DNA of 64,000 nucleotides from Pseudomonas sp. LS.1a (GTDB taxonomy: Bacteria; Pseudomonadota; Gammaproteobacteria; Pseudomonadales; Pseudomonadaceae). Below the pieces are notes generated by a model. It had not been told where the DNA came from. It saw nothing but the letters and a program-made list of their open reading frames with translations, and made no database searches. The stretch spans positions 3,946,001-4,010,000 of the forward strand of contig NZ_CP092827.1 of assembly GCF_022533585.1 (NCBI RefSeq). The letters run 5' to 3'. Shown in pieces: positions 27,698 to 61,348 of this stretch (its first letter is position 1; each line of letters begins with the position of its first letter). The position numbers and the translations under genes were made by a program.

Positions 27698-27956
27698 AGG
27701 GCGTTAGCGCCTGGGAGACCGAGCGCCGCCCGCGCGGCGCATCGCGAGCGAAGCTCGCTCCTACATTTGTTTCGGGCCAGTAACGCCTGCGCCAGCGCGC
27801 GCGACCGCCTTGTTTGTTCCACACAATATCGAGGTGAACGCCAAAGGGCCGCGCGCCTCTGCCTCAGGATTAACTGGCCCGAAACAAATGTAGGAGCGAG
27901 CTTCGCTCGCGATGCGCCGCGCGGGCGGCGCTCGATCTCGCAGGCGCCACAACCCT
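27698..27956. repeat. MITE-like dispersed repeat, copy A
   Basis: An element of about 260 bp with perfect 60-bp inverted arms (27721-27780 and 27874-27933) around a core of about 93 bp, plus weaker outer arms (agggcgtt.gcgcctgggaga / tctcgcaggcgccacaaccct). Its core is the reverse complement of the core of copy B at 47770-47986, with a few differences. It codes for no transposase. It occupies most of the 481-bp gap between the fpvI-like gene and pvdR. Confidence 0.88.
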
Positions 27957-27993
27957 GTCGCCATACACCTGTCAGCCCCTACCCAACATTCGC

Positions 27994-28017
27994 TAAATCC
28001 CCTCCTGCCGCTTTCGT
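27994..28017 (+). promoter_or_regulatory. PvdS (iron-starvation) box for pvdR
   Basis: GCTAAAT with TAAAT at 27994-27998, exactly 16 bp, then CGT at 28015-28017: a perfect PvdS promoter signature, 31 bp before the pvdR ATG. Confidence 0.92.
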
Positions 28018-28048
28018 CTATCTGGCACCCCCTCGGCTGGAAGTCTGC

Positions 28049-32717: not shown

Positions 32718-34337
32718 TCAACGCGAGCGCTGCGCCACCTTCAGGTTGCGCGCATACCACGGCCGCTGCGGTACCTTGAGCCGCAGCTTGTCGAGCAGGT
32801 CGTCATCGCTGTAGATGATGCGCAACGCCAGCTTCATGGTCTCCGGGTCCATCTCGACACTGCGCCCGGGCCGCAAACCCGGCACCGTCGAGCAGCCGTG
32901 GGTATCCGGCCCCAGCCACGGGTCCGCCACTTGCACCCAGCGCCCTGGCGCAAACCATGGCACACCATTGACCTCCAGGCGCCGCACCTCGCCCGGATGC
33001 AGCCGCTCATGGGCATGGAACCAGTCCTCGATGCGGTCGTCGATCCAGCCGTGAAATTGCCAGAACACCGGGTTCACATGGGATGAAAACGGGTCACCAA
33101 GAAAATCGTTCTGCTCGGCGAACCAGCGTTCGGCAAAATCATCCGGCGTACGCGCCGTCGGCACCGGCATACCGTTGGACGGGTCGCGCGGCACCGATGC
33201 CCAGCGCATGTGCAGCCAGTCGTGCAGGCCCAGCTCCACTTCCGAACCGAACTGGCCCAGGGTCAAGGTGCTCAGGTACTCCGGGTCGGTATAGCGTGAC
33301 TCCCAGACCTGGAAGTTGCCATGGAAGGTATCCGGCGTCTTGATGTCGCGCACCCACTGGGTGTATTCCGCATCACCGCTGGCCAGCCAGGTGGGCGGCA
33401 GGGCATTGCCGTCATGGTTGTCGAAATAGCGGGCGAACCCGGCGCGGTCGCGCTCCAGTTCCGGCTGCGGCAGCGGGAAGCGCGGCCATGACGGCAAGTC
33501 CTGCAAGGCACGGGCATTGCCAAGCATGTGCCGGTGCATGAAGAAAAAGTCCTCGCCCGAGCCGTTGCGGTCTTTGTGCCGGCCCCGGGCGTCACGCTCG
33601 CGGTCACGTGGCCCAGGCTGCCAGCCCAGGCCACGCAGGGCGCCCTGCTTGTCCTTGTCCAGTTTGTGCCATTTGTCCCGCGAGGCATGCCACAGCTGGT
33701 GGAACAGGCGATGCTCCGGGGCGATCAGCCAGGCCAGCAGTTGCGGGTTCAGCGGGGTACGCTCGCGCGCCTCGGGGAAGGTGCGCTTCAAGGCCAGGAA
33801 GTGGTTGTCCTCCACGGGCAATGTCAGCGCGCGGTCCAGGCGCGCAATACGCCCGTTGAGGGTCGCCGGCCCGGCGTTGCCGAACCGGCCCCAGACCTCG
33901 TCGAGCACGATATGGCATTCATAGCGGGCATGGGCCGAACACAGACGCCAGCGCAAGGTGCCCGGTTTGTCGGCCAGAAGGTCACCTACCACGCGGTAGC
34001 GCGGCTCTTCCTGCCCACGCAGGCGCTCGGGGGTATCCAGGTAGCCGCGCAGGGCTCGCCCGCTGGTTGCCACATCCAGGAACAGCTCCAGCTCACCTGT
34101 GGGTAGACCGTCCAGCCCCGCATCCTGGCCCTGCAGGGTCCAGCGCCAGATACCCCGCAGGGTATCGCCCAACTGCTGCAGGCGAGTATCGGCCAGTTCG
34201 ACGACGGCCTCGCCAGGGGTTGCCGGGAATTCCTCGTCGGCACGCTGGCGCTGCACATACAGCGCCCCCAGCGCACCGGGCACCACCACACCCGTCAATG
34301 CCACACCGGCGATGAAACCGCGTCGGGAAATCGTCAT
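32718..34337 (-). CDS. pvdP: PvdP tyrosinase for pyoverdine chromophore maturation
   Basis: A 539-residue copper enzyme that completes the pyoverdine chromophore from ferribactin in the periplasm. The N-terminus has a twin-arginine signal (TISRRGFIAG, then a hydrophobic stretch). Copper-ligand histidines of the tyrosinase type are visible in FFFMHRHML, LHDWLHMRW and FWQFHGWIDDRIEDWFHAH. I prefer the ATG at 34337 to one 15 bases upstream because it begins the usual Tat sequence. A PvdS box on the minus strand lies 54-77 bp upstream. Confidence 0.92.
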   Translation of the reverse strand: MTISRRGFIAGVALTGVVVPGALGALYVQRQRADEEFPATPGEAVVELADTRLQQLGDTLRGIWRWTLQGQDAGLDGLPTGELELFLDVATSGRALRGYLDTPERLRGQEEPRYRVVGDLLADKPGTLRWRLCSAHARYECHIVLDEVWGRFGNAGPATLNGRIARLDRALTLPVEDNHFLALKRTFPEARERTPLNPQLLAWLIAPEHRLFHQLWHASRDKWHKLDKDKQGALRGLGWQPGPRDRERDARGRHKDRNGSGEDFFFMHRHMLGNARALQDLPSWPRFPLPQPELERDRAGFARYFDNHDGNALPPTWLASGDAEYTQWVRDIKTPDTFHGNFQVWESRYTDPEYLSTLTLGQFGSEVELGLHDWLHMRWASVPRDPSNGMPVPTARTPDDFAERWFAEQNDFLGDPFSSHVNPVFWQFHGWIDDRIEDWFHAHERLHPGEVRRLEVNGVPWFAPGRWVQVADPWLGPDTHGCSTVPGLRPGRSVEMDPETMKLALRIIYSDDDLLDKLRLKVPQRPWYARNLKVAQRSR

Positions 34338-34390
34338 TGCATACCTGTGCATTCATTGCGGCCATGGAGCACGGCCCGTCCAAGGCTAGA

Positions 34391-34575: not shown

Positions 34576-35922
34576 ATGACGACTCCACGCTGGAAGAAAG
34601 CCCTGTTTATCAGCCTGGCCGCGGCGGTTGCCGCTGGCGCCGGGCTTGCCGCCTGGCACTACTTCGCCACACCTGCCGGCTATTCCAGGGAGGTGACCCG
34701 CCAGGCCGACGACCTGCAGGAACGCATCATCTCGTTTGACAGCCACGTCACCCTGCCGCTGACTTTCGGCACCGAGGGCAGCGAGGCCGACAAGGACGGC
34801 AATGGCCGCTTCGACCTGGCCAAGGCCGCACGCGGGCGATTGTCCGGCGCGGCCCTGACCATCTTCGCCTGGCCAGAATCCTGGACTGGTGACGGTGGCC
34901 CGCACCGCCCCACCCCAGGCTTCGTCGAAGCCGCCCGCCACACCCAGGAAGTGCGCTACAACGCCATCACCGCCATGGTCCGCGACTTCCCGCAGCAGGT
35001 GGGTATTGCCTACACCCCGCAAGACATGCGGCGCTTGCACGGCGAAGGCAAGTTCGCGGTGTTCCTCAGCATGCTCAACGCCTATGCGCTGGGCGACGAC
35101 ATCGACCAGCTCGACCGCTGGGCCGCGCGCGGCGTGCGCATGTTCGGCTTCAGCTACGTGGGCAACAACAGCTGGGCCGACTCCTCGCGCCCGCTGCCGT
35201 TCTTCAATGACACCGCCGATGCCCTGGACGGCCTGTCGCCGATTGGCAAGCGCGCCGTGCAGCGGCTGAACGACCTGGGCGTGATCATCGATGTGTCGCA
35301 AATGTCCAGCAAGGCGCTGGCCCAGGCCGTCGCCCTCAGCCGGGCGCCGGTGGTGGCCTCGCACTCGGCGCCACGAGCGATGGTCGACATCGACCGCAAC
35401 CTCTCCGACAAGGAGCTGCAGCTGATCAAGGACAGTGGCGGCGTGGTCCAGCTGGTGGCCTTCTCCACCTACCTCAAGCCCCTGAGCAGCAAGACCCGGG
35501 ACAAACTCGACGCCCTGCGCGCCGGCTACGACCTGCCGCCGCTGGCCAACCTGAACTACGCACTGATGCCCGGCGACCCGGTGATCGCCGGCTGGCCCGA
35601 GCAGAAGGTCGGCCAGTACGCCAACGCGCTGTATGGCATTCTCGAGGAAGAACCGCCGGCCACGCTCAAGGACTATGGCGACGCCATCGACTACACCGTG
35701 CGCAAGATCGGCATCGACCATGTCGGCCTGAGCTCGGACTTCAACGAAGGCGGCGGCATCGACGGCTGGCAGAACGCCAGTGAAGCACGCAACGTCACCG
35801 CCGAACTGATCAGCCGCGGCTACTCCGAAGCCGATATTGCCAAGCTCTGGGGCGGTAACTTCCTGCGGGTGTGGGAGCAGGTGCAGCGCACCGCGCAACC
35901 CGTCGCCACCTCATCCCCCTGA
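34576..35922 (+). CDS. pvdM: PvdM, membrane-anchored dipeptidase-family pyoverdine maturation protein
   Basis: A 448-residue member of peptidase family M19 (renal dipeptidase). It has an N-terminal membrane anchor (KALFISLAAAVAAGAGLAAW), an SFDSHVTLP segment in place of the usual metal-binding DxH, and ASHSAPRAMVDIDRNLSDKEL and HVGLSSDFNEGGGIDG near the C-terminus. PvdM is required for oxidation of ferribactin to dihydropyoverdine; its reaction is not fully settled. It heads a pair with pvdN 17 bp downstream. Confidence 0.92.
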   Translation: MTTPRWKKALFISLAAAVAAGAGLAAWHYFATPAGYSREVTRQADDLQERIISFDSHVTLPLTFGTEGSEADKDGNGRFDLAKAARGRLSGAALTIFAWPESWTGDGGPHRPTPGFVEAARHTQEVRYNAITAMVRDFPQQVGIAYTPQDMRRLHGEGKFAVFLSMLNAYALGDDIDQLDRWAARGVRMFGFSYVGNNSWADSSRPLPFFNDTADALDGLSPIGKRAVQRLNDLGVIIDVSQMSSKALAQAVALSRAPVVASHSAPRAMVDIDRNLSDKELQLIKDSGGVVQLVAFSTYLKPLSSKTRDKLDALRAGYDLPPLANLNYALMPGDPVIAGWPEQKVGQYANALYGILEEEPPATLKDYGDAIDYTVRKIGIDHVGLSSDFNEGGGIDGWQNASEARNVTAELISRGYSEADIAKLWGGNFLRVWEQVQRTAQPVATSSP

Positions 35923-35939
35923 CTCTTGCGAGCAACTTG

Positions 35940-37226
35940 ATGAACGATCGTCGCACCTTTCTCAAGCAGGCCGGCCTGCTGGCGGCCGCCCTGCCCCTCA
36001 CAGGCCCGCTGCTGCCTGCCGCCCACGCGGCACCTGCACAGCCTGCCACTGCCAACGGCTGGGCCGCGTTTCGCAGCCTGTTCGAGCTGGACCCGGCCTA
36101 CGCACACTTTGCCAACTTCCTGATCACCTCGCACCCAAGGCCCGTGCGCGAAGCCATCGAGGCGCTGCGCGCCCGCTTCGACCGCCACCCGGCCCGCATG
36201 GTCGACTGGGACAGCCAGTCGGAGTGGAAGCACGAAGCCGCCGTGCGTGAATGGGCAGCCCGCTACCTCGAAGTGACGCCCCGGCAAATCGCCCTGACCG
36301 GCAGCACCACCGAAGGCCTGGGGCTGATCTATGGCGGGCTGAAGATTGCCCCGGGGCAGGAAATTCTCACCACCGTGCACGAGCATTCGGCCGCCCGTCA
36401 CACCATGGGCTTTCGCACCACGCGCGATGGCACGCCAGTTCACCGGTTGCGCCTGTTCGAAGACCCCGCCAAGGTCAACAGCGACCAGGTACTGGCCACC
36501 ATTGCGGCTGCCATCGGGCCGAAAACCCGGGTGCTGGGCATGACCTGGGTGCATTCGGGCAGTGGCGTGAAACTGCCCGTGGGCGAGATCGGCGCGCTGG
36601 TGCGCGAGGTCAATCGCCAGCGTGACGAGCAGGACCGGATCATCTACGTGATCGACGGCGTGCACGGCTTTGGTGTCGAAGACATGCGCTTTGCCGACCT
36701 CAACTGCGATTACTTCATCGCCGGCACGCACAAGTGGATGTTCGGACCGCGCGGTACCGGGATCATCTGCGCGGCGTCCACCGAACTGAAGCAGCTGAAC
36801 CCGACCATTGCCACGTTTTCCGAGAATGAAGACTTTGCCACGGTGATGACGCCCGGGGGTTACCACGCGTTCGAGCATCGCTGGGCATTGGGCAAGGCGT
36901 TCGAGTTGCACCTGCAGTTGGGCAAGGCGGCGGTCCAGGCGCGAATTCATGGGCTTAATGACTATCTCAGGCAGCGGCTTGAAGCGCTGCCGGGGATCGA
37001 GCTGGTGACACCGCGCAGTGCGCAGTATTCGGCGGGGTTCACCTTCTTCCGGGTCACGGGGCAGGATGCTGACGAGATTGCCCGGTATCTCAACAGCCAG
37101 CGCATTGTGGTCGATGCGGTGTCGCGGGATGTCGGGCCGGTGGTGCGGACAGCGCCTGGGCTGTTGAATACCGAGGCGGAGATCGAGCGATTGGTCGATG
37201 CATTGAAGAAGCACGTTCGCGGATGA
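35940..37226 (+). CDS. pvdN: PvdN, PLP enzyme modifying the pyoverdine glutamate side chain
   Basis: A 428-residue class V aminotransferase-fold enzyme. The N-terminus is a Tat signal (NDRRTFLKQAGLLAAALPL), so it works in the periplasm. The PLP lysine lies in FIAGTHKWMFGPRGTG. In P. fluorescens and P. aeruginosa PvdN converts the side-chain glutamate of pyoverdine to succinamide. I chose the ATG at 35940 because the longer frame would overlap pvdM and spoil the Tat signal. Confidence 0.93.
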   Translation: MNDRRTFLKQAGLLAAALPLTGPLLPAAHAAPAQPATANGWAAFRSLFELDPAYAHFANFLITSHPRPVREAIEALRARFDRHPARMVDWDSQSEWKHEAAVREWAARYLEVTPRQIALTGSTTEGLGLIYGGLKIAPGQEILTTVHEHSAARHTMGFRTTRDGTPVHRLRLFEDPAKVNSDQVLATIAAAIGPKTRVLGMTWVHSGSGVKLPVGEIGALVREVNRQRDEQDRIIYVIDGVHGFGVEDMRFADLNCDYFIAGTHKWMFGPRGTGIICAASTELKQLNPTIATFSENEDFATVMTPGGYHAFEHRWALGKAFELHLQLGKAAVQARIHGLNDYLRQRLEALPGIELVTPRSAQYSAGFTFFRVTGQDADEIARYLNSQRIVVDAVSRDVGPVVRTAPGLLNTEAEIERLVDALKKHVRG

Positions 37227-38232: not shown

Positions 38233-38276
38233 GTGGGTTCCTTGGGTGAACAATGTGACTCAAGCCTCCCTACGGG

Positions 38277-38314: not shown

Positions 38315-38338
38315 TAAATCGTTGGTGCAGGCACTCGT
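38315..38338 (+). promoter_or_regulatory. PvdS box for the SCP2-cupin gene
   Basis: GCTAAAT, with TAAAT at 38315-38319, exactly 16 bp and CGT at 38336-38338: a perfect match, 36 bp before the GTG start. Confidence 0.9.
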
Positions 38339-38374: not shown

Positions 38375-39496
38375 GTGGACCTTCAGAGCATTCTCAGCAA
38401 ACTGTTCGCCAACGCTCATGCCGTGGGCATCGAAGGCGTTTTCCAGTTCGTCTTCAGCCAGGACCGGGCCTTCTGGTCGGAGGTGCGCGACAGCAGCCGC
38501 ACCGGTGCCGGCCGGCACAGCGCCCCGGACGTCACCATCGAGCTGGCCGAGCGTGACTTCATGGGCATCATGGGCGGCACCGCCAACGTCGAAGAGCTGT
38601 TCGCCAGCGCCCGCCTGAAGATCAGCGGCAACATGGGCCTGGCCACCCTGCTGCCGCAGATCATCAGCAACGCCCGGCGCGGCGCTCCGGCGACCAAGGT
38701 GTCGATGAACCAGCGCTACCCGACACCGGCACGCCTCAGCGAACGGGTGTCGGCCGCGCAACCGGTGCAGCGCGAGGTGGCACGCATTGCCCGCGCCGAC
38801 ATGCCGCCGGCGCGCTTCCAGGGAGAGTACCTGGAGCACGGAACACCCGTGGTGATCAGTGATGCCCTGCAGGACTGGCCGCTGTTCAGCATGGGCCGCG
38901 AAGCTTCGCTGGAGCATTTCGCCGAACTGCAGGGCATCACCCGGCACGGCGACTACGTGAAGAAGACCTTCTCCACCGACCGCGACTTCCGTTCCACTTC
39001 CATGGCCGACTTCATCGCCTCGCTGGACACCCCGGCCAAACCCGGCGAAACCCCGGCCTACATGGGCAACAACATCGTGCCGGAAAAGCTGCTGGCGCTG
39101 ATTCGCTACCCGCAGTACTTCGCCCGCGAGAAGTTCATTGCGCCGCGTATCTGGATCGGCCCCAAGGGCACCCTGACGCCACTGCACCGCGATGACACCG
39201 ACAACCTGTTCGCGCAGGTATGGGGACAGAAGTCTTTCATCCTTGCCGCACCGCACCATCGCCCAGCCCTGGGCACCTGGTCGACCAGCCCCAAGGGCGG
39301 CCTGGACGGCTGCGACTTCAACCCCGACGCCCCGGACTACCAGCGTTTCCCGGCGGCACGCGAAGTGCCTTTCCTGCGCGTTGTGCTGCAGGCTGGTGAC
39401 CTGCTGTTCCTGCCCGAAGGGTGGTTCCACCAGGTGGAGTCTGTGACCACCTCGCTGTCGGTGAACTTCTGGGTGAACTCCGGGCGCGGCTGGTAG
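38375..39496 (+). CDS. SCP2-cupin_8 (JmjC-like) fusion protein, putative Fe(II)/2-oxoglutarate oxygenase
   Basis: A 373-residue two-domain protein. Residues about 15-110 look like an SCP2 sterol/lipid carrier domain (PDVTIELAERDFMGIMGG, then SARLKISGNMGLATLL). Residues about 140-373 are a cupin_8/JmjC-like barrel with the facial-triad motif LHRDD (His271, Asp273) and GWFHQVES (His352), so metal binding looks intact. Start is GTG at 38375 with AGAGG upstream. The family includes protein and peptide hydroxylases. A perfect PvdS box puts it in the pyoverdine regulon; the substrate is unknown. It is clearly not the TauD-type aspartate hydroxylase class by sequence. Confidence 0.82.
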   Translation: MDLQSILSKLFANAHAVGIEGVFQFVFSQDRAFWSEVRDSSRTGAGRHSAPDVTIELAERDFMGIMGGTANVEELFASARLKISGNMGLATLLPQIISNARRGAPATKVSMNQRYPTPARLSERVSAAQPVQREVARIARADMPPARFQGEYLEHGTPVVISDALQDWPLFSMGREASLEHFAELQGITRHGDYVKKTFSTDRDFRSTSMADFIASLDTPAKPGETPAYMGNNIVPEKLLALIRYPQYFAREKFIAPRIWIGPKGTLTPLHRDDTDNLFAQVWGQKSFILAAPHHRPALGTWSTSPKGGLDGCDFNPDAPDYQRFPAAREVPFLRVVLQAGDLLFLPEGWFHQVESVTTSLSVNFWVNSGRGW

Positions 39497-39751: not shown

Positions 39752-41143
39752 TCAGACCGCCGCGATCAACGCCTCGGAAAAGCGCTGCGCAACCTCATCG
39801 ATCTGCTCGCCACTGATGATCAACGGCGGCAAGAAGCGCACCACCGCCCCATGCCGCCCACCCAGCTCCAGGATCAGCCCACGCTTGAGGCATTCGCGCT
39901 GCACCTTCGCCGCCAGCTCGCGGTTGGCCGCCGGATACCCAAGTGCATCCCGCTGCCCTTGCGGGTCCACCAGCTCTACCCCGAGCATCAGCCCACGCCC
40001 GCGAACATCACCCAACTGCGGATAAGCCCGCTGCAGCTGCTGCAGGTGCTGGCGCAGGCGCTGCCCCATGGCCTCGGCATGCTCGGCCAGGCGATGCTCG
40101 ACCAGGTAGTCGATCACCGCCGAGCCCGCCGCCATGGCCATCTGGTTACCACGGAAAGTGCCGGCGTGGGCGCCCGGTTTCCAGGTGTCCAGCCAGTCGC
40201 GGTACACCACCACCGCCAGCGGCAGGCTGCCGCCAATGGCCTTGGACAGGGTGACCACGTCCGGAACGATGCCGGCATGCTCGAAGGCGAACATGCGCCC
40301 GGTGCGGGCAAATCCACTCTGGATCTCATCGACGATCAACGCCACGCCGGCCTGCTCGGTGATACGGCGTACACCCTTGAGCCACTCGATATCGGCCGGG
40401 ATCACCCCGCCCTCACCCTGCACCACTTCCAGAATGACCGCCGCCGGCAGCGGCACGCCGCTTTCCGGGTCGAGCAACAGGTTTTCCAGATAATGCAGGT
40501 TGGCCTTGACCCCGGCTTCGCCGCCCAGGCCGAACGGGCAACGGTAGTCGTAGGGGTACGGCATGAACTGCACACCGTTGCCGAGCAAGGCCCCCAGCGG
40601 CTGCTTCGGCCCATGGCTACCCATCAGGCTCAGCGCACCCTGGCTCATGCCATGGTAGGCGCCGTGGAAGGCCAGCACGGTGCTGCGGCCGGTGGCGCTG
40701 CGCACCAGCTTCAGCGCTGCTTCCACCGCATCGGTACCGGTCGGGCCGCAGAACTGCACCTTGGCCTCACGGCGCAACGCCTCGGGCAGTACGCCGAACA
40801 GGTCCTGGACGAAGCGGTCCTTGACCGGCGTGGTCAGGTCCAGCGTGTGCAGGGGCAGCTCATCGGCCAGTACCCGCTGGATCGCCTCGACCACCACCGG
40901 GTGGTTGTGGCCCAGCGCCAAGGTGCCGGCGCCGGCCAGGCAGTCGATGAACTGGCGACCTTCGACATCTTCCACATGGATGCCACGGGCGCGCTTGAGC
41001 GCCAGCGGAATTCGGCGCGGGTAGCTGCGGGCATTGGACTCCTGTTGCTGCTGGCGTTGCAGCAAGGGTGAATCGGTGAACTCGTACAAGGCACGCGGCG
41101 CGCTGGCCGGCGGGACCTGGGCAAGGCAGGAAGCAGTGGACAT
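39752..41143 (-). CDS. pvdH: L-2,4-diaminobutyrate:2-oxoglutarate aminotransferase
   Basis: A 463-residue class III aminotransferase that makes diaminobutyrate from aspartate semialdehyde; the product is loaded by PvdL. The PLP region ALIVDEIQSGFARTGRMFA and VTLSKAIGGSLPLAVVV, with the Schiff-base lysine in the latter, are typical. I chose the ATG at 41143 because GAGGAATC precedes it. A PvdS box lies 50-73 bp upstream on the minus strand. Confidence 0.94.
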   Translation of the reverse strand: MSTASCLAQVPPASAPRALYEFTDSPLLQRQQQQESNARSYPRRIPLALKRARGIHVEDVEGRQFIDCLAGAGTLALGHNHPVVVEAIQRVLADELPLHTLDLTTPVKDRFVQDLFGVLPEALRREAKVQFCGPTGTDAVEAALKLVRSATGRSTVLAFHGAYHGMSQGALSLMGSHGPKQPLGALLGNGVQFMPYPYDYRCPFGLGGEAGVKANLHYLENLLLDPESGVPLPAAVILEVVQGEGGVIPADIEWLKGVRRITEQAGVALIVDEIQSGFARTGRMFAFEHAGIVPDVVTLSKAIGGSLPLAVVVYRDWLDTWKPGAHAGTFRGNQMAMAAGSAVIDYLVEHRLAEHAEAMGQRLRQHLQQLQRAYPQLGDVRGRGLMLGVELVDPQGQRDALGYPAANRELAAKVQRECLKRGLILELGGRHGAVVRFLPPLIISGEQIDEVAQRFSEALIAAV

Positions 41144-41192
41144 GGTGATTCCTCGCAAGCAAGCGAAAGTGCGGGTGTTCGTCGCTTGGGAA

Positions 41193-48024: not shown

Positions 48025-51000
48025 CTACAACCCCTCCAGCTCGGCCATCAGGTCACTGAGCCGGTCGACTTTGTCGTCATCCAGCGCACTGCCCTGCAGC
48101 CCCTGCACATATTCAGCCAGCTCCTCTACCGTGCTGCACTCGAACATCGCCCGTAGCGGCACGTTCAGTTGTAACTCCTTCTGCACCCGCGAGGCGATCT
48201 GCGTGGCCAGCAGCGAATGCCCGCCCAACTCGAAGAAGTTGTCGTGCACCCCTACCCGCTCGGCCTTCAGCACATCGGCCCAGATACCGGCCAACACCTC
48301 CTCCAGCTCGTTACGCGGCGCCTGGTAGGCCTGGCTGTGCTGGCCACCGATGTCGATGGCCGGCAGGGCCTTGCGGTCGAGCTTGCCGTTGGCGTTGTGC
48401 GGCAGGCTGTCGAACCAGCCCCAGTGCAGCGGCACCATGTACTCCGGCAACTCGGCACGCAGGCGCTGCTTGAGCTGCTCCAGCAACGCAGCATCGGCTG
48501 CAATGCCCTGATGCGCCACCAGGTAGCCCACCAGGTGCTTGCCATTGACGCCCTCTTGCACGCCAACGGCAGCATCGCGGATTTCCGCCTGCTCGTGCAG
48601 ACGGGCTTCGATCTCGCCCAGTTCGATGCGGTAGCCGCGAATCTTTACCTGGTGGTCGATGCGCCCGACATACTCCAGCACCCCGTCCGGACGCTGCCGC
48701 GCCAGGTCGCCGGTGCGGTACAGGCGTTCGCCCGGCGCACCATGAGGATGGGGGATGAATGCCAGCGCCGTACGCATCGGGTCGCCGACATAGCCACGGC
48801 CCACGCCGGTGCCAGCCACGCACAGCTCACCCACCGCCCCCAGCGGCACCAGCGTCTGGTCCTCGCCGAACAGGTACAGGCGGTTGTTGTCGGTCGGCGT
48901 GCCGATCGGCAGGTAGCTGCCACGGGTCGAGGCGGCATCTACGCGGAAGAACGCCACGTCATCGGAGCACTCCGCCGGGCCATAGGCGTTGACCAGGCCG
49001 ATCTGCGGGTAACGCTGCAGCCACTGCGCTGCCAGCTCCGGTGGCATGGCTTCGCCGGTCGGCAGCATCCAGCGCAACCCGTCGAGCGCCTGATGGTCGT
49101 TGGCCAGCATGCCCTGGATCAGCGACGGCACACTTTCCAGTACGGTGATGCCGGTAGCCTGCACATGCGTCAGCAGGCCCTGCGGGTCATGGGCGATGGC
49201 GTTCGGCACAATCTCCACTTTGGCGCCGAACAACGGCGCGGCAAGGAACTGCCACACGGAAATGTCGAAGCTCTGCGAGGCCGTCTGGGCGACCACGTCC
49301 TGCTCGCTGAGCGCCAGGTACGGCACCTTGCTCAGCTGGTTGTTGAGCATGCCGCGCTGCTCGACCATCACCCCCTTCGGCAGGCCGGTGGAGCCTGAGG
49401 TGTAGATCACATAAGCGAGGTTATCCGGCCCGCTGTGGATGCCTGGGTTGTGGCTGGCAACGGCACTGGCCTGGATGTCTTCCCAAACCAGCAGCTGCGG
49501 CCGTGTCGCCAGCTCCAGCTCATCCAGCAACAGCTGCCCTTGCTCAGCACAGGCTGCACTGCACACCAGCACCGGCGTGCCGCTGAGCTGGATGATGCTT
49601 TGCAGGCGCGCTGCCGGCAGGCCAGGGTCCAGCGGCAGGTAGCCAGCGCCAGCCTTGAAGCTGCCAACGATCATGCCCAGCAACGGCAACCCGCGTTCGG
49701 CCAGCAATGCCACCGGCTGATCCACGCGGACCCCGGAAGCCACCAGGGCATGGCCCAGGCGGTTGGCCGCCAGGTTCAGCCCGGCGTAGTCATAGGAGGC
49801 TTCCAGGCAACGGGCCACAGTACGCTGCGGATGCGCGGCCACTTGTGCTTCGAACTGCGCGATGTAGCTCTGCTCCAGCGGATAAGACCGTTCGGTACGG
49901 TTGCAGTCTTCCAGCAGGAAGCGCTGTTCTTCGGTGCCAAGCAACGGCAGTTCACCCACCTCCCCTTCAAAACCCTGCACCAGCGCCAGCAGCAGGCGCT
50001 TGAACTCGGCCAGCAGGCGCTCGACGGTCGGGTAGTCGAAGTAACGCTGGTCGAACGACAGGTGCAGGCCGAGGTCATCGCCCGGGTAGCACACTGCTGT
50101 CAGCGGGAAGTTGGTATGGGTACGGCCCGAGTCGGAACTGGCATTCAGGTGCTGGGCGTGGTCGAGCACGGTGGTTTCCACCGGCGCGTTCTCGAACACG
50201 AACAGGCTGTCGAACAGCGGCTGACCCTTGGGCAGCTCGCTGCATTCCTGGATCGCCACCAGCGGCAGGTATTCGTACTCGCGCAGCTCCATGTTGCGCT
50301 CCAGCAGGCCTTGCAACCACTGGCGCACACTGCAGCGCTCACCCGCCACCGGCAACTGCACGCGCAAGGCAATGCTGTTGATGAACAGGCCGACGGTACG
50401 CTGCATCTGCGGCATGCTCACCGGGCGCCCGGCCACGGTCACGCCAAAGATCACGTCGCGGTCGCCGCTGTAGCGCGCCAGCACCAGGGCCCAGGCCGCC
50501 TGGGCAAAGGTGTTGACGGTGAGCTGGTGGGCCTGGGCCAGTTCGCGCAGGCGCACGCCGTCGCTTACCGCCAGGCGGGTGTAGCAGTCACCGACGATCA
50601 TGCCGCTACCGGCATGGTCGTGGCGCAGCGGGCGGTCGCTGGGGAGGGTGGTGGCGCGTTCGAAGCCGGCCAGGTTGGCCTGCCACCAGGCGCGCGCGTC
50701 GTCCAGGCCCTGGCGTTGCAGCCAGCCGATGTAGTCGCGGTAGCGCGGTGGCACCGGCAGCTGGGCCTGACGGCCTTCGCCAAGGGCCTGGTAGACCTCG
50801 AAGAAGTCGTTCATCAACAACGAGCGGCACCAGGCGTCGATGAGGATGTGGTGGTTGCTCATCATGAACCAGTAGCGCTCGTCGGCCACACGCACCAGGC
50901 GCAGGTGGAACGGCGCCTCGCTGAGCAGGGCGAAACCCGCCTCGCGTTCCTGCTTGTGCAAGGCCTGCAGGCGCTGCTCCTGGGCGTCGTCATCGAGGCC

Positions 51001-54000
51001 GCGCCAGTCCTGGTAGTCCACCGGTGTGTTGCCCGGCTTGTGGATGATCTGCAGCATCGCCTCGCCGGTATTCCAGCTGAACGATGCACGTAGCGCTTCG
51101 TGGCGCGCCACTACCGCCTGCCAGGCCTGGGCGAAGCGCTCGGGGTCGAGCGCGCTGTTGATGCGGTAGCGGTCCTGCATGTAATAGAGGCCGGTGCCCG
51201 GCTCCAGCAGGGTGTGCAACAGCATGCCCTCCTGCATCGGCGTCAGCGGGTAGACGTCCTCGATCTGCGCAGCCGGTACCGGCAGCGCGTCGATCTGCGC
51301 CTGGGTCAGGTGTGCCAGCGGGAAGTCCGACGGCGTGAAGCTGCCGTTGCCATCCGCCAGGCAATGCTCGACCAGTGCCAGCAGCTCCTGGCGATAAGCC
51401 TCGGCCAGGCGGGCGATGGTCCGCTCGTCATAGCGCTCGGTGCTGAAGGTCCAACGCAGTTGCAGGGCACCGCCATACACCTGGCCATCGACACTCAGCC
51501 AGTTGGGCAGCGGTGCATCGAGGTCATGGGCCAGGCCGGCCGGGGCGTCCATTGGCTGGAACAGAGCAGAGCTGTCGAACTGCTGGTCGAACTGACCCAG
51601 GTAGTTGAAAGTGATACGCGCCTGCGGCAAGGCCGCCATCTGCTCGCGCCCGGCCTCATCCGCCAGGTAGCGCAACACACCGTAACCCAGCCCTTTGTGC
51701 GGCACCTGGCGCAGCTGCTCCTTGATGCGCTTGATCGAACCGGCCCGCGCCGCGTCGTCCTCGCCTGGCAGCGGGCGCAGGCTCAGTGGATAAGCGTTGG
51801 TGAACCAACCGACGCTGCGGGTCAGGTCCATGTCTTCGAACAGCCCGTCGCGACCATGGCCTTCAAGCTGTACCAGCACTTCTTCGTCGCCGCTCCAGCG
51901 GCACAGGGCACGTGCCAGCGCGGTCAGCAGCAGGTCATTGACCTGGGTGTGATAGGCCGCCGGGGCCTGTTGCAGCAACTGCCGGGTCTGCACCACATCC
52001 AGGCCGATGGCCAGGGTACGGGCGTGACGGTGCAGGTTGCCGCCCTGCGGGTGATCGCATGGCAGTTCGCGGCGCACGCTGCCCAACTGGCCTTGCCACC
52101 AGCCCAGCTCGTCACGCAGCGAATCGCTACCGGCGTAGCTGGCCAGGCGTGCGGCCCAGTCGCCCATGGCATGGGTCTTGGCCGCCAGCGGCTGGCCACG
52201 GTACAGCGCCTGCAGGTCTTCCAGCAGCACGCGCCACGACACGCCATCGACCACCAGGTGATGGATCGCCAGCAACAGGCGCTGGCTGCCCTGCCCGTCC
52301 TTTACCAGCAAGGCGCGCAACAGTGGGCCCTGCTGCAGGTCGAGGCTGCGTTGCAGGTCGGTATACAGCGGTTGGCAATCGGCGAAGTCGGCAACCGTGG
52401 CTGTCCATAGCAATTGCCCGGTGCCAGGCTGGGCATATTCGGCCTGCCAACGGCCCTGGGCCTGGCTGAAGCGCAGACGCAGGCTGTCGTGGTGCTGCAC
52501 CAGGGCGGCCAAGGCGTGCTCCAGTAACCCTTCATCCAGCGGCTCGCGCGCCTCCAGCAGAACGGCCTGGTTCCAGTGCTGCGGCTGTGGCACTTCACTG
52601 TCGAAGAACCAGTGCTGGATCGGCGTGAGGCCGGTCTGGCCCTGGCGCTGGCCCTGTTCGATGCTGCTGGCGGCTTCGCTGTGCCGAACGATGGCCGCCA
52701 GGGTCTGGATGGTCTGATGCTGGAACAGGTCGCGCGGGGTGAACTGCAAACCGGCCTGACGGGCCCGGCTGACCACCTGGATCGACAGGATCGAGTCGCC
52801 GCCCAGCTCGAAGAAGTTGTCCTGCACGCCAACCCGGGCAACGTTGAGCACGTCGCACCAGATCTGCGCCAATTGCGCTTCTACCGGGCTGCCGGGCGCC
52901 TGGTACTGCTGGCGAGCCTGCTCCAGGTCCGGCAGCGGCAGCGCACGGCGGTCGAGCTTGCCGTTGCCCATCAGCGGCAGGCTGTCGAGCAGCACCAGGT
53001 GCGCTGGCACCATGTAGTCCGGCAGATGCTGGCGGGCATCGGCCTTCACCGCGTCGCGCAGCAGGCCCTGGGTCTCGCTGTCGGCAGCGGCCTGCTTGCA
53101 CACCAGGTAGCCCACCAACTGCTTGCCGCCCGGCAGGTCGAGGGCCAGCACCACGGCCTCGTCGATATCGGCATGCGCCTGCAGGCGGCTTTCGATCTCG
53201 CCCAGTTCGATGCGGAAACCGCGAATCTTCACCTGCTGGTCGGCGCGGCCGACGTACTCGACCAGGCCATCGCTGCCCAGGCGCACCAGGTCACCGGTGC
53301 GGTACAGGCGCCCGCCTTCGCTGCTGAACGGGTCGGCGACGAAGCGCTCGGCGCTGAGGCCCGGGCGGTCGTGGTACCCCTGGGCCAGGCCGGCACCGCC
53401 GACATACAGCTCGCCAATACCGCCTTGTGGCAACAGGGCAAGGTCCTCGTCAAGGATGTAGGCCGTGCGGCTACCGATGACGCGGCCGATCGGTACGCTG
53501 CCAAGCTCCGCTGGCAGTGTCTGTGGTGCCAGGCAGGCCAGCGGCATGACCACGGTTTCGGTCGGCCCGTAGGCGTTGAAGAACTGCTGCGGCGCGAAGG
53601 CCTGGCGGATGCGCTGCAGGTGTTCGCCGGTCAGCGCTTCACCACCGGTAATCACCAGGCGCACGGGCAACTGCTCGCCCTGCCCGGCCAGGTACTGCGC
53701 CAACTGGCTACCGTAGCTGGGCGTGAAGCCGAGGATGCTCACCTGCTGCTCGTGCACCAGCTGACAGATGTCTTCGGCACCCCACTGCCCCTGGGCACGC
53801 AACACCACGCGGGCGCCACACAGCAGCGGCACCCACAGGCGTTCGCTGGCGGCATCGAAATTGATCGAATAGAAGTGCAGCTCGCAGTCATCGCTGCGCA
53901 TGCCGAACGCCGCGATCACCGCCTGGCAATGCATGGCGAACTCGCCGTGGCTGACTACCACGCCCTTGGGCTTGCCGGTGGAGCCGGAGGTGTAGATCAG

Positions 54001-57000
54001 GTAGGCCTGGTGCTGCGGCAGGTTGTGGTTGTCCAGCGGCGCATCGCTGTAGGCCGACAGGCTGGCGCTGTCGTCCTCCAGGCTCCAGCGCGTCACGCCT
54101 TCGGGCAGCTCGCCCAGGGTTTGCAGCAGCGCGCGCTGGCTCAGCAGCAGGCCGATGCGGCTGTCTTCAATCATGTAGCGCAGGCGGTCGAGCGGGTACT
54201 CGGGGTCGAGCGGCACGTAGGCGCCACCGGCCTTGAGGATGGCCAGCAGGCCGACGACCATTTCCAGCGAGCGCTCCAGCGCCAGGCCCACGCGCACCTG
54301 CGGGCCGACGCCGCGCTCGCGCAGGGCGCGGGCCAGGCGGTTGGCCTGCTGGTCGAGTTCGGCATAGGTCATGTGCTGGCCGGCGAAGGTCAACGCACCT
54401 GCATGCGGCGTGCGCGCAGCCTGGGCGGCGAACAGGCCGTGCAGGGTCTGGCCGAGGTCGAGGTCCTGCTCGCCCTGCAACTGGCCCGCCAGCACCTGCT
54501 GCTCGGCGCTACTCAGCATCGGCAGCTCACACAGGCGCTGCTGCGGGTTGTCGAGCAGGCCGGCCAGCAGTTGCTGCCAGTGCTCGGCCATGCGTGCAAT
54601 GCGTGGTTCGTCGAACAGGTCACGGCTGTAGGTCAGGCAGCAACCCAGGCGGCCGTCGAGGTCGGTCACCTCCAGGTACAGGTCGAACTTGGTGGCGCTG
54701 GCGTCGTTGACCAGGTAGTCCACCTGCATGCCAGCAAGCTGGCGGCTTTGCTGGAAGGCCCAGCGCTGCACGTTGCACATCACCTGGAACAGCGGGTTGT
54801 AGGCGCTGCTGCGCGGTGGCTGCAGGGCTTCCACCAGCTGGTCGAACGGCAGGTCCTGGTGCGACTGGCCTTCGATGGCAACCTGGCGCATCTGCTCCAG
54901 CAACTGTGCGGCGGTCATCTGGCCGTCCAGCTCGCAACGCAGCACCTGGGTGTTGAGGAACGCGCCGATCAGCCCTTCGCTTTCCGGGCGGATGCGGTTG
55001 GCCACCGGCGCGCCAATGCGCAGGTCACGCTGGCCGCTGTAGCGGTGCAACAAGGCGGCCAGGGTGGCTGCCATGGTCATGAACAGGGTCAGGCCACGCT
55101 GGCTGTTGAAGGCATGTACGCGGGCAACCAGCGCCGGGTCGAGCTCGAAACGGTACAGCTCGCCACGGTGGCTCTGCACGGCCGGGCGCGGGCGGTCGGC
55201 AGGCAACGCCAGCACCGGGTGTTCGTCGCCCAGGCGATCCTTCCAGTAGGCCAGCTGGCGGGCGCCCTCGCCGCTCTCCAGCCATTGCCGTTGCCAAACG
55301 CTGTAGTCCAGGTACTGCACCGGCAGCGGCGCCAGCGGCGATTCGCGGTCATCGACGAAGGCCTCGTACAGCTCGCCCAGTTCGCGGGCGAAGATGTCCA
55401 TGGCCCAGCCTTCGGTGACGATGTGGTGCAGGGTCAGTACGAAGAAGTGCTCACGCTCTTCGGCTTTGACCAGGCATGCGCGCAGCAGCGGGCCGCGCTC
55501 CAGATCGAACGGCTGGTGCGCCTGGTCGTCGGCCAGTTGTTGCAGGCGTTGTTGGCGGGCATCGGCGGGCAAGGCGCTGAAGTCCTGCCAGTCGAGGTGC
55601 AGGCTGCTGTCTTCGGCCACGCACTGGTACGGCACGCCATCGATGCCGGGGAAGGTGGTGCGCAGGGTTTCGTGGCGCACCACCAGCGCCTGCAGCGCAC
55701 GCTCGAAGGCATCCACATGCAGGGCGCCGCGCAGGCGTGCCATGCCGCCGACGTTGTACGCCGGGCTGTCCGGCTCCATTTGCCAGAGGAACCACATGCG
55801 CTGCTGAGAATACGACAGCGGCACCGCCTGACGGCGGTCGACACGGGCGATTGCGCCTTGCAGGTTGTGCTCACCGGCAGCGCGGACACGCGCGATCTCG
55901 GCACAGAAGGCGCCCAGCTCGCTGGCGTCGAACAGGGCCTTGAGCGGTAGCTCGACATCGCAGGCCTGACGCGTGCGCGAAACAATTTGAGTGGCCAGCA
56001 GCGAATGGCCGCCGAGGGCGAAGAAGTCATCCTGCAGGCCGATGCACGGCAGGTTCAGCACCTCGCGCCAGATGGCGGCAACCTGCTGCTGCAGCTCGGT
56101 TTGTGGCTCGACGTGCGCACGCTGCTGCCACACCGGGGCCGGCAATGCCTTGCGCTCGACCTTGCCGCTGGGGCCCAGCGGCATCTGCGCCAGCGGGATG
56201 AGTTGTGCCGGCACCATGTAAGCCGGTAGTTGTTCAGCCAGCACCGTCAGCAATGCATCAGGCTGGGCGCTGCCGGTGTAGTAACCGACCAGTTGTGCGC
56301 CGACGGCATCCTTGTGGATCAGCACCAGCGCCTGTTCGACCCCCGCTTGCGCCAGCAGGCAGGCCTGGACTTCCTCGGGCTCGACCCGGAAGCCACGCAC
56401 CTTGACCTGCTGGTCGAGGCGGCCAAGGTACTCCAGCGCCTCGGTCTGCACCTGCCAGCGGGCGCGGTCGCCACTGCGGTACAGGCGTTCGCCATGGCCG
56501 TCGGCCCGGGGCACGAAGCGCTCGGCGGTGAGGCCCGGGCGGCCCAGGTAGCCACGGGCCAGGCCTGCACCGCCAAGGTACAGCTCGCCCGGTACACCAG
56601 GGGCCGTCAGTTCCAGCTCGTCGTCCAGCACGCGGCACAGCACATTGCCCAGCGGGCGGCCGATCGGCGAGTGCTCGCCATCGCTAGCCTGGCAATGCCA
56701 GTGGGTGACGTTGATGGCGGTTTCGGTCGGGCCATAGCGGTTGTGCAGTTGCACCTGTGGCAGCGCCTGTAGCACCCGGTCACGCAGCGCGACGGACAGC
56801 GCTTCACCACCGGAGAACAGCCGGCGCAGGCTGCTGCAGGCACCCGCCTGCGGCTCCTGGATGAATACCTGCAACAGCGGCGGCACGAAGTGCAGCGTGG
56901 TCACGCCATGGGTTTGCACCAACGCGGCGATGCGCTGCGGGTCACGGTGCTCGCCGGGGCCGGCAAGCACCAGCTTGCAACCGGTCACCAGCGGCCAGAA

Positions 57001-60000
57001 GCATTCCCACACCGAAACGTCGAAGCTGATCGGCGCCTTCTGCATCAGCACGTCACTGTCGTCCAGCGCATAGCTGGCCTGCATCCACTGCAGGCGCTCG
57101 GCCAGTGCTGCATGGGTATTGCCCACGCCTTTTGGCTGGCCAGTGGTGCCGGAGGTATAGATCACGTAGGCCAGGTTGTCGCCATGCAGGTGCAGGCCAG
57201 GCGCATGGGTAGGCCAGCTGTCCAGGTGCAACTGGTCGAGGGCAATGGCGCTGACGCCCTCGACCTGTGGCAGCCTGCCCAGCAGGCTGCTGTGGCTCAG
57301 CAGCAGGCCAGCGTTGCAGTCGCCGAGCATGTAGGCCAGGCGCTCGGCCGGGTAATCGACGTCCAGCGGCACATAGGCGCCACCGGCCTTGAGAATGCCC
57401 AGCAGGCCGACCAGCAGCTGCGGCGAACGCTCTACGGCGATGGCCACGCAGGTGTCGGGGCCGACGCCTTTGTCACGCAGGTAGTGGGCCAGACGGTTGG
57501 CTTGCTGGTGCAGCTCGGCGTACTCCAGGCTGCCACCGTCCCACACCAGGGCGGTGCGCTGCGGGGTCAGGCGTGCCTGTTCATTGAGCTGCTCGACCAG
57601 CAGACGCTGCGGTGCTGCTACCGGTGCCTGGCCCCAGCTCAGCAGTTGCGCGCGGCCAGGCTCGTCGAGCAATTGCACCTCGCCCAGCGCCCGCTGCGGC
57701 TCGGCGCACACCTGCTCCAGCAGGGCCAGCAGGTGCTGGGCCAGACGCTGGACGGTGCTGGCGTCGAACAGTTCTGCGGCATAGTCGAAAGCCAGGCTCA
57801 GGCGGCCCTGGTGGTCTTCCTCACTGTGCAACTGCAAGTCGAACTTGGCTTCGCGACTGTGCCACGGCAGTTCTTCGGCCAGCAGGCCCGGCAGGCGGCG
57901 CAGGGCAGACAGGTCACGTTGCTGGTGGTTGAACATGACCTGGAACAGGCCTTGCTCGCGTGCCTCGGGCAAGGCGTCGACCAGTTGCTCGAACGGCAGG
58001 TCCTGGTTGGCTTGGGCGTCCAGGGTGGCCTGGCGCACCTGGGCCAGTAACTGATCGAACGGCAGGCGGCCATCGAGTTGCGCGCGCAGCACCTGGGTAT
58101 TGATGAAGAAGCCGACCATACCTTGGGTTTCCAGGCGCGGGCGGTTGGCGTTGGGCACGCCGACGCGGATATCGGCCTGGCCACTGTAGCGGTGCAGTAG
58201 CGCCTGCCAGCCGGCCAGCAGCACCATGAACAGGCTGGCCTGCTGTTCGCGGGCCAGGCCCTTGAGCGCCTCGGTGAGCCTGGCCGGTACCTTGAGGCTG
58301 AAGCGGGCGGCACGGTGGTCGCGCTGGCTGGCGCGTGGATGGTCGGTGCACAGGTCGAGCACCGGTAGTTCATCTCCCAGGCGCACCTGCCAGTACTGCA
58401 ACTGACGCTCGGCTTCGCCTGCGGCCAGCCACTGTCGCTGCCAGGTGCCGTAGTCGGCGTAACCCAGGGTCAGCGCTGCCAGGTTGGCCTCAAGGCCTTG
58501 GCAACGGGCGGCGTACAGTTTGGCGAATTCGTCGAGCAGGATGTTCAGCGACCAGCCATCGGCGACGATATGGTGCAGGGTCACCCATAGCTGATGGTGT
58601 TCATCGTCAAGGCGCGCCAGGGTCACCCGCAGCAATGGCCCATGGGTCAGGTCGAACGGCTGGCGGGCCTCGGTTTCCCGCTGGGCGGCGACCTGTTCGG
58701 CGGCCTGGCCTTCGAGGTCCAGGCGGCGAAGGTTGAACGCCTGTTGCGGCAGGATGCGCTGCAGGGCCTGGCCGTTCTCTTCGGCAAACAGGGTACGCAG
58801 TGATTCGTGGCGCGCCACCAGCGCCTTGAAGGCCGCTTCCAGGGCACTTTCGTCCAGCTCACCGCGCAACTGCAGGCCGGCCGGAATGTTATAGGCGGCC
58901 GACTGCGGGTCCAACTGCCATAGCAGCCACAGGCGGTTTTGCGCCAGCGACTGGGGCAGCGCCTGGGTGCGCTCCAGGGTGGCGATGGCCCCGACCCGGC
59001 CACCGCCTTCGGCGATGATCGCGGCCACGGCCTTGGCGTAATCAGCCAGTACCGGCGCCTCGAACAGGGTGCGCAGGCCCAGGTTGATGCCCAGTTCATC
59101 GGCCAGGCGTGCGGTGGCGTGGGTGGCGGCGATGGAGTTGCCGCCCAGCAACAGGAAGTGGTCGTCTGCTGCCACCGCCTCGACCTTGAGGATGTCGCGC
59201 CACACAGCGGCGATGCGTGCCTGTAGTTCATCGCCGGCTGCCCCCGTGGCAACGGGCTCGCCCACTTCAGGGAAGCGGGCATAGCAGTCCAGGCTGCCAT
59301 CGTCCATGCGCAAGCGGCAGGCCGAACGCTGCAGCTTGCCGCTGGAGGTCTTGGGCAGCGCGCCCGGGTTCAGCAACAGGACCACGGCCGGGGCCTGGCG
59401 GCAGGCGTCGGCGATCACCTGGCGCAGGGTCTTGATCAGGTCCTGGGGTTTGATCGCCTTCTGCACGTTGCGGCTGACTTCCACCGCCACGCCGATGCCC
59501 TCCTCGCCTTGCTGCTCTACGGCGAACACCGCCACCCGGCCTTTGCGCAGCACATCCACTTCGCGCTCGAGGGTTTTTTCCAGGTCCTGCGGGTACAGGT
59601 TCTGCCCACGCACGATCAGCATGTCTTTCAGGCGCCCGGTGACGAACACTTCGCCTTCGCGCATGAAACCCAGGTCACCGGTACGCAGCCAGGTCTGGCC
59701 GTCCATCTCGACGAAGGTGCGGGCGCTGGCCTCTGGGTTGCGCCAGTAGCCCAGGGCGATGCTCGGGCCGCCGGCCCAGATCTCGCCCACCTGGTTGTCG
59801 CCCAGCACCTGCAGGCGTTGTGGTTCGACAATGCGCACGGCATGCCCGGGCTGCGGGTAGCCACAGCTCATCAGCACACTGCCCTTGCCAGGTTCTGCAC
59901 GGTTGGCGGCGAAGGCTTCGGCGTCCAGCTCCAATTCAGCGATGCCCTGGCCACGGCGGCTGCCGCTGACGAACAGGGTCGCCTCGGCCAGGCCGTAGCT

Positions 60001-60978
60001 GGCGAAGAAGCTCTGTGAGTCGAAGCCGCAGGCCTGAAACTTGTCGGCGAAGGTCGCCAGGCTGTCCTGGCGGATCGGCTCGGAGCCGGAATAGGCCACC
60101 CGCCAACGGCTGAGGTCGAGCCCGGCCAGCGAGGCTTCGCTGACCCGCTCGCTGCACAGCCGGTAGGCGAAGTCGGGGCCGCCGCTGATGGTACCGCCGT
60201 ATTCACTGATGGCCTGCAACCAGCGCAGCGGCCGGGCCAGGAAGTAGCCCGGCGACATCAGTACGCAGGGTACGCCGCTGAAGATCGGCTGCAACAGGCC
60301 GCCGATCAGGCCCATGTCGTGGTACAGCGGCAGCCAGCTGACGATCACGTCATCAGGATTGAGGTCGAGGCCAAAGCCCTGGCGGATCAGTTGTTCGTTG
60401 GCCACCAGGTTGCCATGGCTGACCTGCACGCCTTTGGGCAATGCGGTGGAGCCTGAGGTGTACTGCAGGAAGGCGATGTCATCACCCTTGAGTACGGGCT
60501 CGCGCCAGTTCGCAGCCAACGCCGGGTCCAGGCTATCCACTGCCAGCAGTTCGGGAGCGTTGGGCGCCGCCAGGGCCTCCAGGCCCTGCAGGCTGCCGTG
60601 CAGCGCCGCAACGGTCAGCAGCAGGCGCGGCTCGGCGTCGTCGATGATCGACAACAAGCGCTGCTGGTGGTGCTGGCGCGCGGACTCCGGCGGGTAGGCC
60701 GGCACTGCAATCACACCGGCATACAGACAGCCGAAGAACGCCGCCACGTAGTCTGGCCCGCTGGGGAACAGCAGCACTGCACGGTCGCCGAAGCCGGCCC
60801 GGGCCTGCAAGGCAGCGGCGATGGTGCGCGCACGCTGGTCGAGGTCCCGATAGCTGAGCACGGCCTGCTCGCCGGGCGCGTCGGCCAGAAAGCGCAAGGC
60901 GACTTTGTCCGGGCTCTGCGCGGCGCGTTGCGCCAGGGCCTGGACCAGCGAGAGCGGGAGTTCGAAGGCGTCCGTCAT
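48025..60978 (-). CDS. pvdL: Pyoverdine chromophore NRPS PvdL
   Basis: A 4317-residue synthetase that starts pyoverdine assembly. Domain order from motifs: acyl-AMP ligase ([12 protein letters not shown] about 171), carrier (LGGNS about 611), condensation (HHIVADGWS about 801), adenylation ([12 protein letters not shown] about 1273), carrier (1655), condensation (HHIVTEGW about 1849), adenylation (2328), carrier ([10 protein letters not shown] about 2724), epimerase ([10 protein letters not shown] about 2905), condensation (HHILIDAW about 3375), adenylation (3857), carrier (4250). The order AL-T-C-A-T-C-A-T-E-C-A-T is that of P. aeruginosa PvdL, which loads a fatty acid, Glu, D-Tyr and Dab. 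There is no thioesterase, so it hands on to another NRPS. The ATG at 60978 has AGGAAC upstream. Confidence 0.96.
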
Positions 60979-61071
60979 GGGGTGTTCCTGCCAGTGTCTG
61001 GTTGGGTCGGGCCGGCTGCTGCGCGAACGTGGGCGCGGCGGCGTGTGGCGGCCTGGGGTGTACACAGGGGA

Positions 61072-61095: not shown

Positions 61096-61152
61096 GCGTA
61101 TGAAAGGGTTTGGGGGCTGCATTTGGGCTGCTGGGGGTAGGCCTTGGGTGGT

Positions 61153-61200
61153 GCGGCGCTCGATCTCACAGGCGCTGAAAACGCCCTGCCATGCACCCAG
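61153..61200. repeat. Solo end of the MITE-like repeat, copy C
   Basis: gcggcgctcgatctcacagg and the following 25 bases match the outer right end and flank of copy A (27925-27968) with scattered changes. No inner arm or core is present, so this is a truncated end or a remnant. It lies between the pvdL PvdS box and the pvdS promoter. Confidence 0.6.
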
Positions 61201-61252
61201 CAACCCTCACGCCTTAGAACCGAAATCACATGAAACTAATTACATTTCGCAT

Positions 61253-61281
61253 TTGACAATTATTATCATTCTGAATAGCTT
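61253..61281 (+). promoter_or_regulatory. pvdS promoter with Fur box
   Basis: TTGACA (61253-61258), a 17-bp spacer and TAGCTT (61276-61281) overlap a Fur box at 61255-61273 (GACAATTATTATCATTCTG, 14 of 19 matches to the Fur consensus). Fur bound here would block the promoter directly. Confidence 0.78.
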
Positions 61282-61348
61282 GTCGCCCGTCGTAGGAAGC
61301 TTCCCAACTTTGGGTGCGTCCTTTCCCCTCTGTGACAAGGTGATTTCC

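Follow-up and report, generated by a model that had tools for sequence, protein, structure and literature searches.

The known hydroxylases of aspartate and histidine residues in siderophores are TauD-type enzymes. The pyoverdine precursor, according to the available passages of a 2018 review, is acylated in the cytosol and loses its acyl chain to PvdQ in the periplasm, a feature general for the pathway. The same passages attribute the malamide side chain to an unknown enzyme, its biosynthesis being a blank, and give it as absent from PAO1 and A506; succinamide, hydroxylated in the periplasm, is considered the likelier substrate, and a hydroxylated-Glu intermediate 'has never been found'. The accessible part of a 2022 review likewise treats malamide and malate side-chain biosynthesis as unknown, and the literature passages covered name no gene for azotobactin's extra ring. 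Here we describe a gene, named SCUP in this work, from a 64,000-nucleotide stretch of the Pseudomonas sp. LS.1a genome (the window), and propose that it may well encode the missing hydroxylase acting on one end of pyoverdine. We could find no published function for its family in the literature covered (mostly without subscription papers), where no title or abstract opening on this subject names the gene; the word 'cupin' is absent from the papers checked for it.

Domain anatomy and promoter of SCUP

The gene and its elements are arranged as follows.

38315..38338 (+): PvdS (iron-starvation, IS) box, exact TAAAT-N16-CGT, first base 60 nt before the SCUP start codon
38375..39496 (+): SCUP, an SCP2-Cupin_8 (JmjC-like) fusion; GTG start, ORF of 373 aa
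38432..38662 (+): SCP2 lipid-carrier domain, residues 20-96 (Pfam PF02036; PDB sequence matches to SCP2/nonspecific lipid-transfer proteins)
38807..39472 (+): Cupin_8/JmjC double-stranded beta-helix oxygenase domain, residues 145-366 (Pfam PF13621; JMJD5 fold)
39185..39193 (+): HxD metal motif, His271, Arg272 and Asp273, aligned with the HQD of JMJD5
39230..39232 (+): Lys286, predicted 2-oxoglutarate-binding lysine; invariant and aligned with the JMJD5 lysine
39428..39430 (+): His352, predicted third metal ligand (sequence and JMJD5 alignment)

The original prediction described this gene as an SCP2-cupin_8 fusion and a probable non-heme iron oxygenase with an intact HxD...H motif, distinct from the TauD-like siderophore hydroxylases, and each of these points held. 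Both domains score above the curated Pfam cut-offs (E 5e-9 and 36.8 bits against 21.3 for PF02036; E 4e-38 and 132 bits against 27 for PF13621), PF02668 (TauD) is not among the Pfam matches at E 1e-3, and an NCBIfam search gave no match at the same threshold. Across 21 aligned homologues M1 is invariant, which supports the choice of start codon, and His271, Asp273, His352, Lys286 and Asn277 are each conserved in 21 of 21 sequences. At the positions aligned with Lys286 and Asn277, JMJD5 has the same two residue types, which we take to bind 2-oxoglutarate there. The barrel adopts the double-stranded beta-helix fold, with Foldseek matches covering the JmjC part, and the SCP2 fold is assigned from Pfam and sequence matches. 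By fold and motif, SCUP is therefore a predicted JMJD5-like oxygenase of the Fe(II)/2-oxoglutarate type. Inspection by eye found no evident signal peptide, and for this reason the protein is taken as cytosolic.

The perfect PvdS box noted earlier is indeed exact, and the window holds six TAAAT-N16-CGT boxes against 0.25 expected from shuffled sequences. When spacers of 14 to 18 were allowed in a search upstream of SCUP in 80 named loci, a same-strand box with exactly N16 was found 55-115 nt upstream in 72 of them, mostly about 60 bases before the start; an Azotobacter-type copy carries its box 71 bases before the start, and in L011, L059, L061, L062, L066, L071, L078 and L080 no box lies within 500 bp. 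Judged by these counts, the box upstream of SCUP is not a chance match, and because it is conserved in 72 of the 80 loci the gene seems to belong stably to the iron-starvation (PvdS) regulon. Elsewhere in the window, the listed start of a PvdR-type frame (27623-29221, +) precedes a PvdS box at 27994, and the actual start codon probably lies past the box.

Genomic setting and distribution

SCUP is flanked by pyoverdine genes: pvdP, pvdM and pvdN precede it and pvdH comes after it.

32718..34352 (-): PvdP tyrosinase, chromophore formation (NCBIfam NF051454)
34576..35922 (+): PvdM, Peptidase_M19 family (Pfam PF01244), gene name by position
35871..37226 (+): PvdN, Glu to succinamide side-chain enzyme (NCBIfam NF051467)
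39752..41158 (-): PvdH diaminobutyrate-2-oxoglutarate transaminase (NCBIfam)
48025..61065 (-): PvdL NRPS, from its size, its condensation and adenylation domains and its place beside the sigma factor
61100..61879 (+): ECF sigma factor beside PvdL, most likely PvdS (Pfam sigma-70 r2/r4), name by position

We take the product of 34576..35922 to be PvdM and the large NRPS to be PvdL, which presumably assembles acylated Glu-Tyr-Dab, the first part of the precursor. The side-chain NRPSs occupy four frames nearly 300 kb from PvdL. Seven adenylation domains in them read Asp-Lys-Asp-Ser-?-Lys-OHOrn, with a gap that fits one more domain before the second Lys, an order that matches the GB-1 peptide (automatic parsing missed several codes, and pocket stretches were read by eye on contiguous sequence; among the codes of G000 one module was apparently unread). 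A TauD gene of the Asp-hydroxylase type adjoins these NRPSs.

Two further genes of the window were recorded. An Abhydrolase_3 esterase (37264-38253, -), LipP1-like below the NCBIfam cut-off, diverges from SCUP across a common promoter region, and among L001-L080 this gene adjoins SCUP only in L001-L007. A GNAT acetyltransferase (Acetyltransf_8; 61995-63008, -) resembling hydroxyornithine acetylases is preceded by a PvdS box (63051-63074), despite which the siderotype predicted for the window genome lacks acetyl-OHOrn; the azotobactin locus L130 also has a homologue, close to pvdM.

In an even draw of 199 Pseudomonas genomes, SCUP was matched in 44 at a threshold of E 1e-20, and 42 were kept after two weak matches had been dropped (G174, 38% identity; G103, 34% identity). 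All 42 carriers are among the 140 genomes with pvdP, a co-occurrence with a chance of 4e-8 if genomes were independent, which serves as a guide only, genomes being related. The two genes share a contig in 33 of the 42, always within 54 kb, and lie on different contigs in nine. Regular occurrence in genomes without pyoverdine genes, which the original prediction had named as speaking against a pyoverdine role, was not observed, for SCUP without pvdP is absent from the 199 genomes. The distribution within the genus is patchy.

A pvd gene or NRPS lies in the fetched 10-kb flank of SCUP in 74 of the 80 named loci, a count from which a weak ABC-transporter match in L077 is excluded and in which NRPSs were confirmed as pyoverdine-type by their codes in some loci only. 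Neither was found in the fetched flanks of L072, L073, L075 and L077, nor in L022 and L043, whose flanks are short. These figures bear on the idea that SCUP modifies a protein, as do JMJD5 and FIH, or has some other role in the PvdS regulon away from the siderophore. Its nearest solved relatives act on proteins, and in P. taiwanensis (L072) and P. shirazensis (L075) the gene follows those for a two-component system and a DoxX protein, and the fetched 10-kb flanks contain no pyoverdine gene; however, both copies keep the PvdS box, and the constant presence of pvdP and the neighbours in 74 loci argue for a link to the siderophore. We regard a role of either kind as unlikely, with some weight left to it.

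The linkage extends beyond the genus: a family-wide draw of 298 genomes gave 19 SCUP matches, two of them in carriers outside Pseudomonas. In an Azotobacter-type genome (G250), pvdP is followed by SCUP on the same strand, near NRPSs, and the encoded protein is 97% identical to one labelled Azotobacter vinelandii. Ten side-chain adenylation domains, their pocket stretches read by eye, give Asp-Ser-Hse-Gly-Asp-Ser-Cit/Arg-Hse-OHOrn-Hse, which we take to be the azotobactin peptide. The available text of the A. vinelandii genome paper assigns azotobactin synthesis to a pvd cluster of at least 60 kb. The same pvdP-SCUP tandem is found in G238, probably P. lopnurensis, and SCUP lies directly beside pvdP in five genomes altogether (G250, G238, G149, G181 and G080). 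PvdN does not reach its cut-off in G250, G238, G149 and G181; it does in G000, G480, G542 and G080, the last being the only one of the five with PvdN above cut-off. SCUP represents a real, conserved JmjC-SCP2 family of pyoverdine and azotobactin producers.

Several observations concern individual copies. In nine loci SCUP has a SIP (siderophore-interacting FAD-binding) reductase gene as a same-strand neighbour no more than about 210 bp away, downstream in L004, L008, L010, L011 and L067 and upstream in L014, L018, L057 and L059. SCUP is also present in records labelled as enterobacteria, namely L067 (Pantoea sp. Ap-967) and P0089 (Serratia proteamaculans, a 1456-bp contig); L067 has the P. putida gene order and a pvdH at 95% identity, which makes the Pantoea label doubtful. 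The gene is interrupted or shortened in G034, G105 and G080, and pvdP is fragmented too in G034 and G080, through either assembly error or decay. Absence of a species from the 80-locus list was rejected as a sign of gene absence: the carrier G480, with a 93% identical copy, is unrecognisable there by name. A GB-1 primer, allowing up to one mismatch, matches three of 398 genomes, exactly in G542 and G143 and with one mismatch in G480; G542 and G480 carry SCUP and G143 does not, so such NRPS regions exist in carriers and non-carriers alike.

In part of the P. putida-type loci (L008, L010, L064 and L067), SCUP lies between an NRPS and pvdH. We take syrP to hold this position in KT2440, a strain that we presume to lack SCUP and to be identical with NBRC 100650. 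Amino-acid side chains are the targets of JmjC hydroxylases such as FIH and JMJD5. Position and enzyme class would both suit an amino-acid beta-hydroxylase of a peptide residue (Asp, His or another) that replaces the TauD-type enzymes. Replacement was rejected, because the window genome and several relatives carry both: a TauD gene accompanies SCUP also in L027, L016, L058, L060, L068 and L076. Peptide beta-hydroxylation is further made unlikely by the pyoverdine of P. fulva, whose peptide, in the accessible part of the published description, is Asp-Ser-Ser-AcOHOrn-Lys-Lys-cOHOrn and contains no carbon-hydroxylated residue. SCUP is probably not a peptide beta-hydroxylase, and we consider that role very improbable. 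Together, the TauD gene beside the NRPSs and the P. fulva peptide make the N-terminal Glu, from which the malamide side chain derives and which azotobactin lacks, the best candidate residue. The earlier suggestion that the barrel hydroxylates 'a residue or the acyl chain', which did not mention malamide or azotobactin, is narrowed in its first part to this candidate, other residues of the peptide being unlikely.

Side-chain chemistry and a possible role

The isoform masses listed for P. fulva in the available part of the paper fit succinamide, succinic acid, succinimide, malamide and azotobactin within 0.01 Da by our arithmetic, which assigns the peaks at 1204.57 and 1205.54 opposite to the naming in the paper's text. 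For strain NBRC 16637 the accessible table gives succinimide, succinamide, malamide and an 'azotobactin -16' mass, not 1131.50; this azotobactin mass is listed for strain 16639. The NBRC 16637 genome corresponds to L008, where SCUP adjoins an NRPS beginning Asp-Ser. In the published passages covered, azotobactin is reported in GB-1, and malamide occurs alongside azotobactin in the azotobactin-making strains GB-1 and P. fulva; azotobactin is also reported from P. chlororaphis ATCC 9446. NBRC 14164, the type strain of P. putida, is the most likely identity of the carrier G480; the masses listed for that strain in the available table are spaced as imide, succinamide, succinic acid and malamide. 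Mass pairs 16 apart, a spacing that is ambiguous for peptides with hydroxy-Asp, are listed there for NBRC 14671 (L010, a SCUP carrier) and for NBRC 15366, NBRC 3778 and P. parafulva 16635; these last three, and NBRC 12996 with its malamide mass, lie outside the strains scored for SCUP. Malamide is absent from the masses tabulated for the KT2440-type strain. For P. taiwanensis VLB120, a malic acid side chain was reportedly described by Baune in 2017. Malamide or azotobactin fits the carriers P. fulva 16637, probably NBRC 14164 and possibly NBRC 14671, and the association of SCUP with malamide and azotobactin is a correlation with support from the chemistry of a few strains.

Other carriers point the opposite way. 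L031 is presumably the P. brassicacearum type strain DSM 13227 under another collection number, and we assumed the A214 peptide for the mass comparison. The ion published for DSM 13227 (m/z 1134.41) fits the succinamide form of the A214 peptide and not malamide, and for P. taiwanensis, of which L072 carries SCUP, the available text gives m/z 1044 only, readable as the succinic form. These single ions look unhydroxylated and count against our proposal; the accessible parts of the two papers report no search for further forms. The 'azotobactin -16' mass of NBRC 16637, in place of 1131.50, weighs in the same direction, as do the 2018 review's preference for periplasmic hydroxylation of succinamide, given that SCUP shows no evident signal peptide, and its statement on the hydroxylated-Glu intermediate.

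We propose that SCUP acts in the cytosol as an Fe(II)/2-oxoglutarate hydroxylase on the acylated N-terminal Glu, a reading to which we give about even odds (roughly 0.5). PvdL would start the peptide with an acylated Glu; the SCP2 domain would bind the fatty acyl group carried by the acylated ferribactin precursor (or by NRPS-bound acyl-Glu), and the JmjC barrel would hydroxylate the neighbouring N-terminal Glu in the cytosol, before export. Recognition of the acylated peptide by SCP2, as suggested in the original prediction, would be compatible with this scheme. After export and deacylation, PvdN would turn the hydroxylated Glu into malamide, and by hydrolysis into malic acid, instead of succinamide. 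In cells that lack PvdN, or in which it works slowly, the remaining carbonyl would close the extra five-membered ring of azotobactin once the activated side chain had been cut away. The part of this scheme that concerns the acyl chain and Glu is drawn from the architecture of SCUP, and the part that concerns malamide and azotobactin from the pairing of the two products and the lack of PvdN in the Azotobacter-type genome. That the acyl chain serves as a handle for a cytosolic oxygenase, and that a single Glu hydroxylation decides between malamide (with PvdN) and azotobactin (without it), is a more tentative extension.

Parts of the same evidence could be read differently. As the original prediction also suggested, SCUP might hydroxylate the fatty acyl chain itself, the change being lost later with the chain, and to our knowledge no benefit or product of such a reaction has been described. 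The SCP2 domain and the cytosolic acylation set out in the 2018 review passages would suit this chemistry, yet acylation is general for the pathway and SCUP is found in only 42 of the 140 pvdP-positive genomes; we judge it quite improbable. Alternatively, SCUP could make only the azotobactin chromophore, by attacking the precursor at its side-chain acyl group or its ring system, and malamide would come from another enzyme. This would agree with the position of SCUP next to pvdP at the azotobactin locus as well as in G238, G149, G181 and G080 and with the azotobactin published for GB-1 and P. fulva 16639. However, one hydroxylation can explain why the listed masses place malamide and azotobactin in the same strains, and NBRC 16637 has malamide without the plain azotobactin mass in its listing; an azotobactin-only role seems unlikely. 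Hydroxylation of the acylated N-terminal Glu remains our preferred reading.

Comparison with known systems

SCUP offers one testable candidate for both the malamide enzyme and the azotobactin ring. If the proposal is true, one Glu hydroxylation would account for the missing malamide enzyme as well as for how the azotobactin chromophore arises, a JmjC family would join the siderophore tailoring enzymes, and the gene would serve in genome mining as a marker for malamide pyoverdines and azotobactins. The precursor acyl chain, put on in the cytosol and removed by PvdQ according to the available review text, would then act as a substrate handle.

Among described proteins, JMJD5/KDM8, JMJD7, TYW5 and FIH have the same double-stranded beta-helix fold and HxD...H triad, and JMJD5, to which SCUP is about 26% identical, has the Lys and Asn at the same places. 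In contrast to these proteins, SCUP is bacterial, carries an N-terminal SCP2 domain and a PvdS box, and lies in siderophore loci. The TauD-type beta-hydroxylases (SyrP, TBH_Asp, IBH_Asp and IBH_His) are, as predicted for SCUP, Fe/2-oxoglutarate oxygenases of siderophore pathways, but they belong to another Pfam family (PF02668), and the window genome has a TauD gene besides SCUP. The SCP2/nonspecific lipid-transfer domains are matched by sequence, both through PF02036 and among solved SCP2 proteins, and SCUP differs from them by its fusion to a JmjC barrel. PvdN and PtaA would share with SCUP its proposed target, the N-terminal Glu of pyoverdine; these two are, in the published passages available, PLP enzymes exported to the periplasm, whereas SCUP is a predicted oxygenase with no export signal evident in its sequence.
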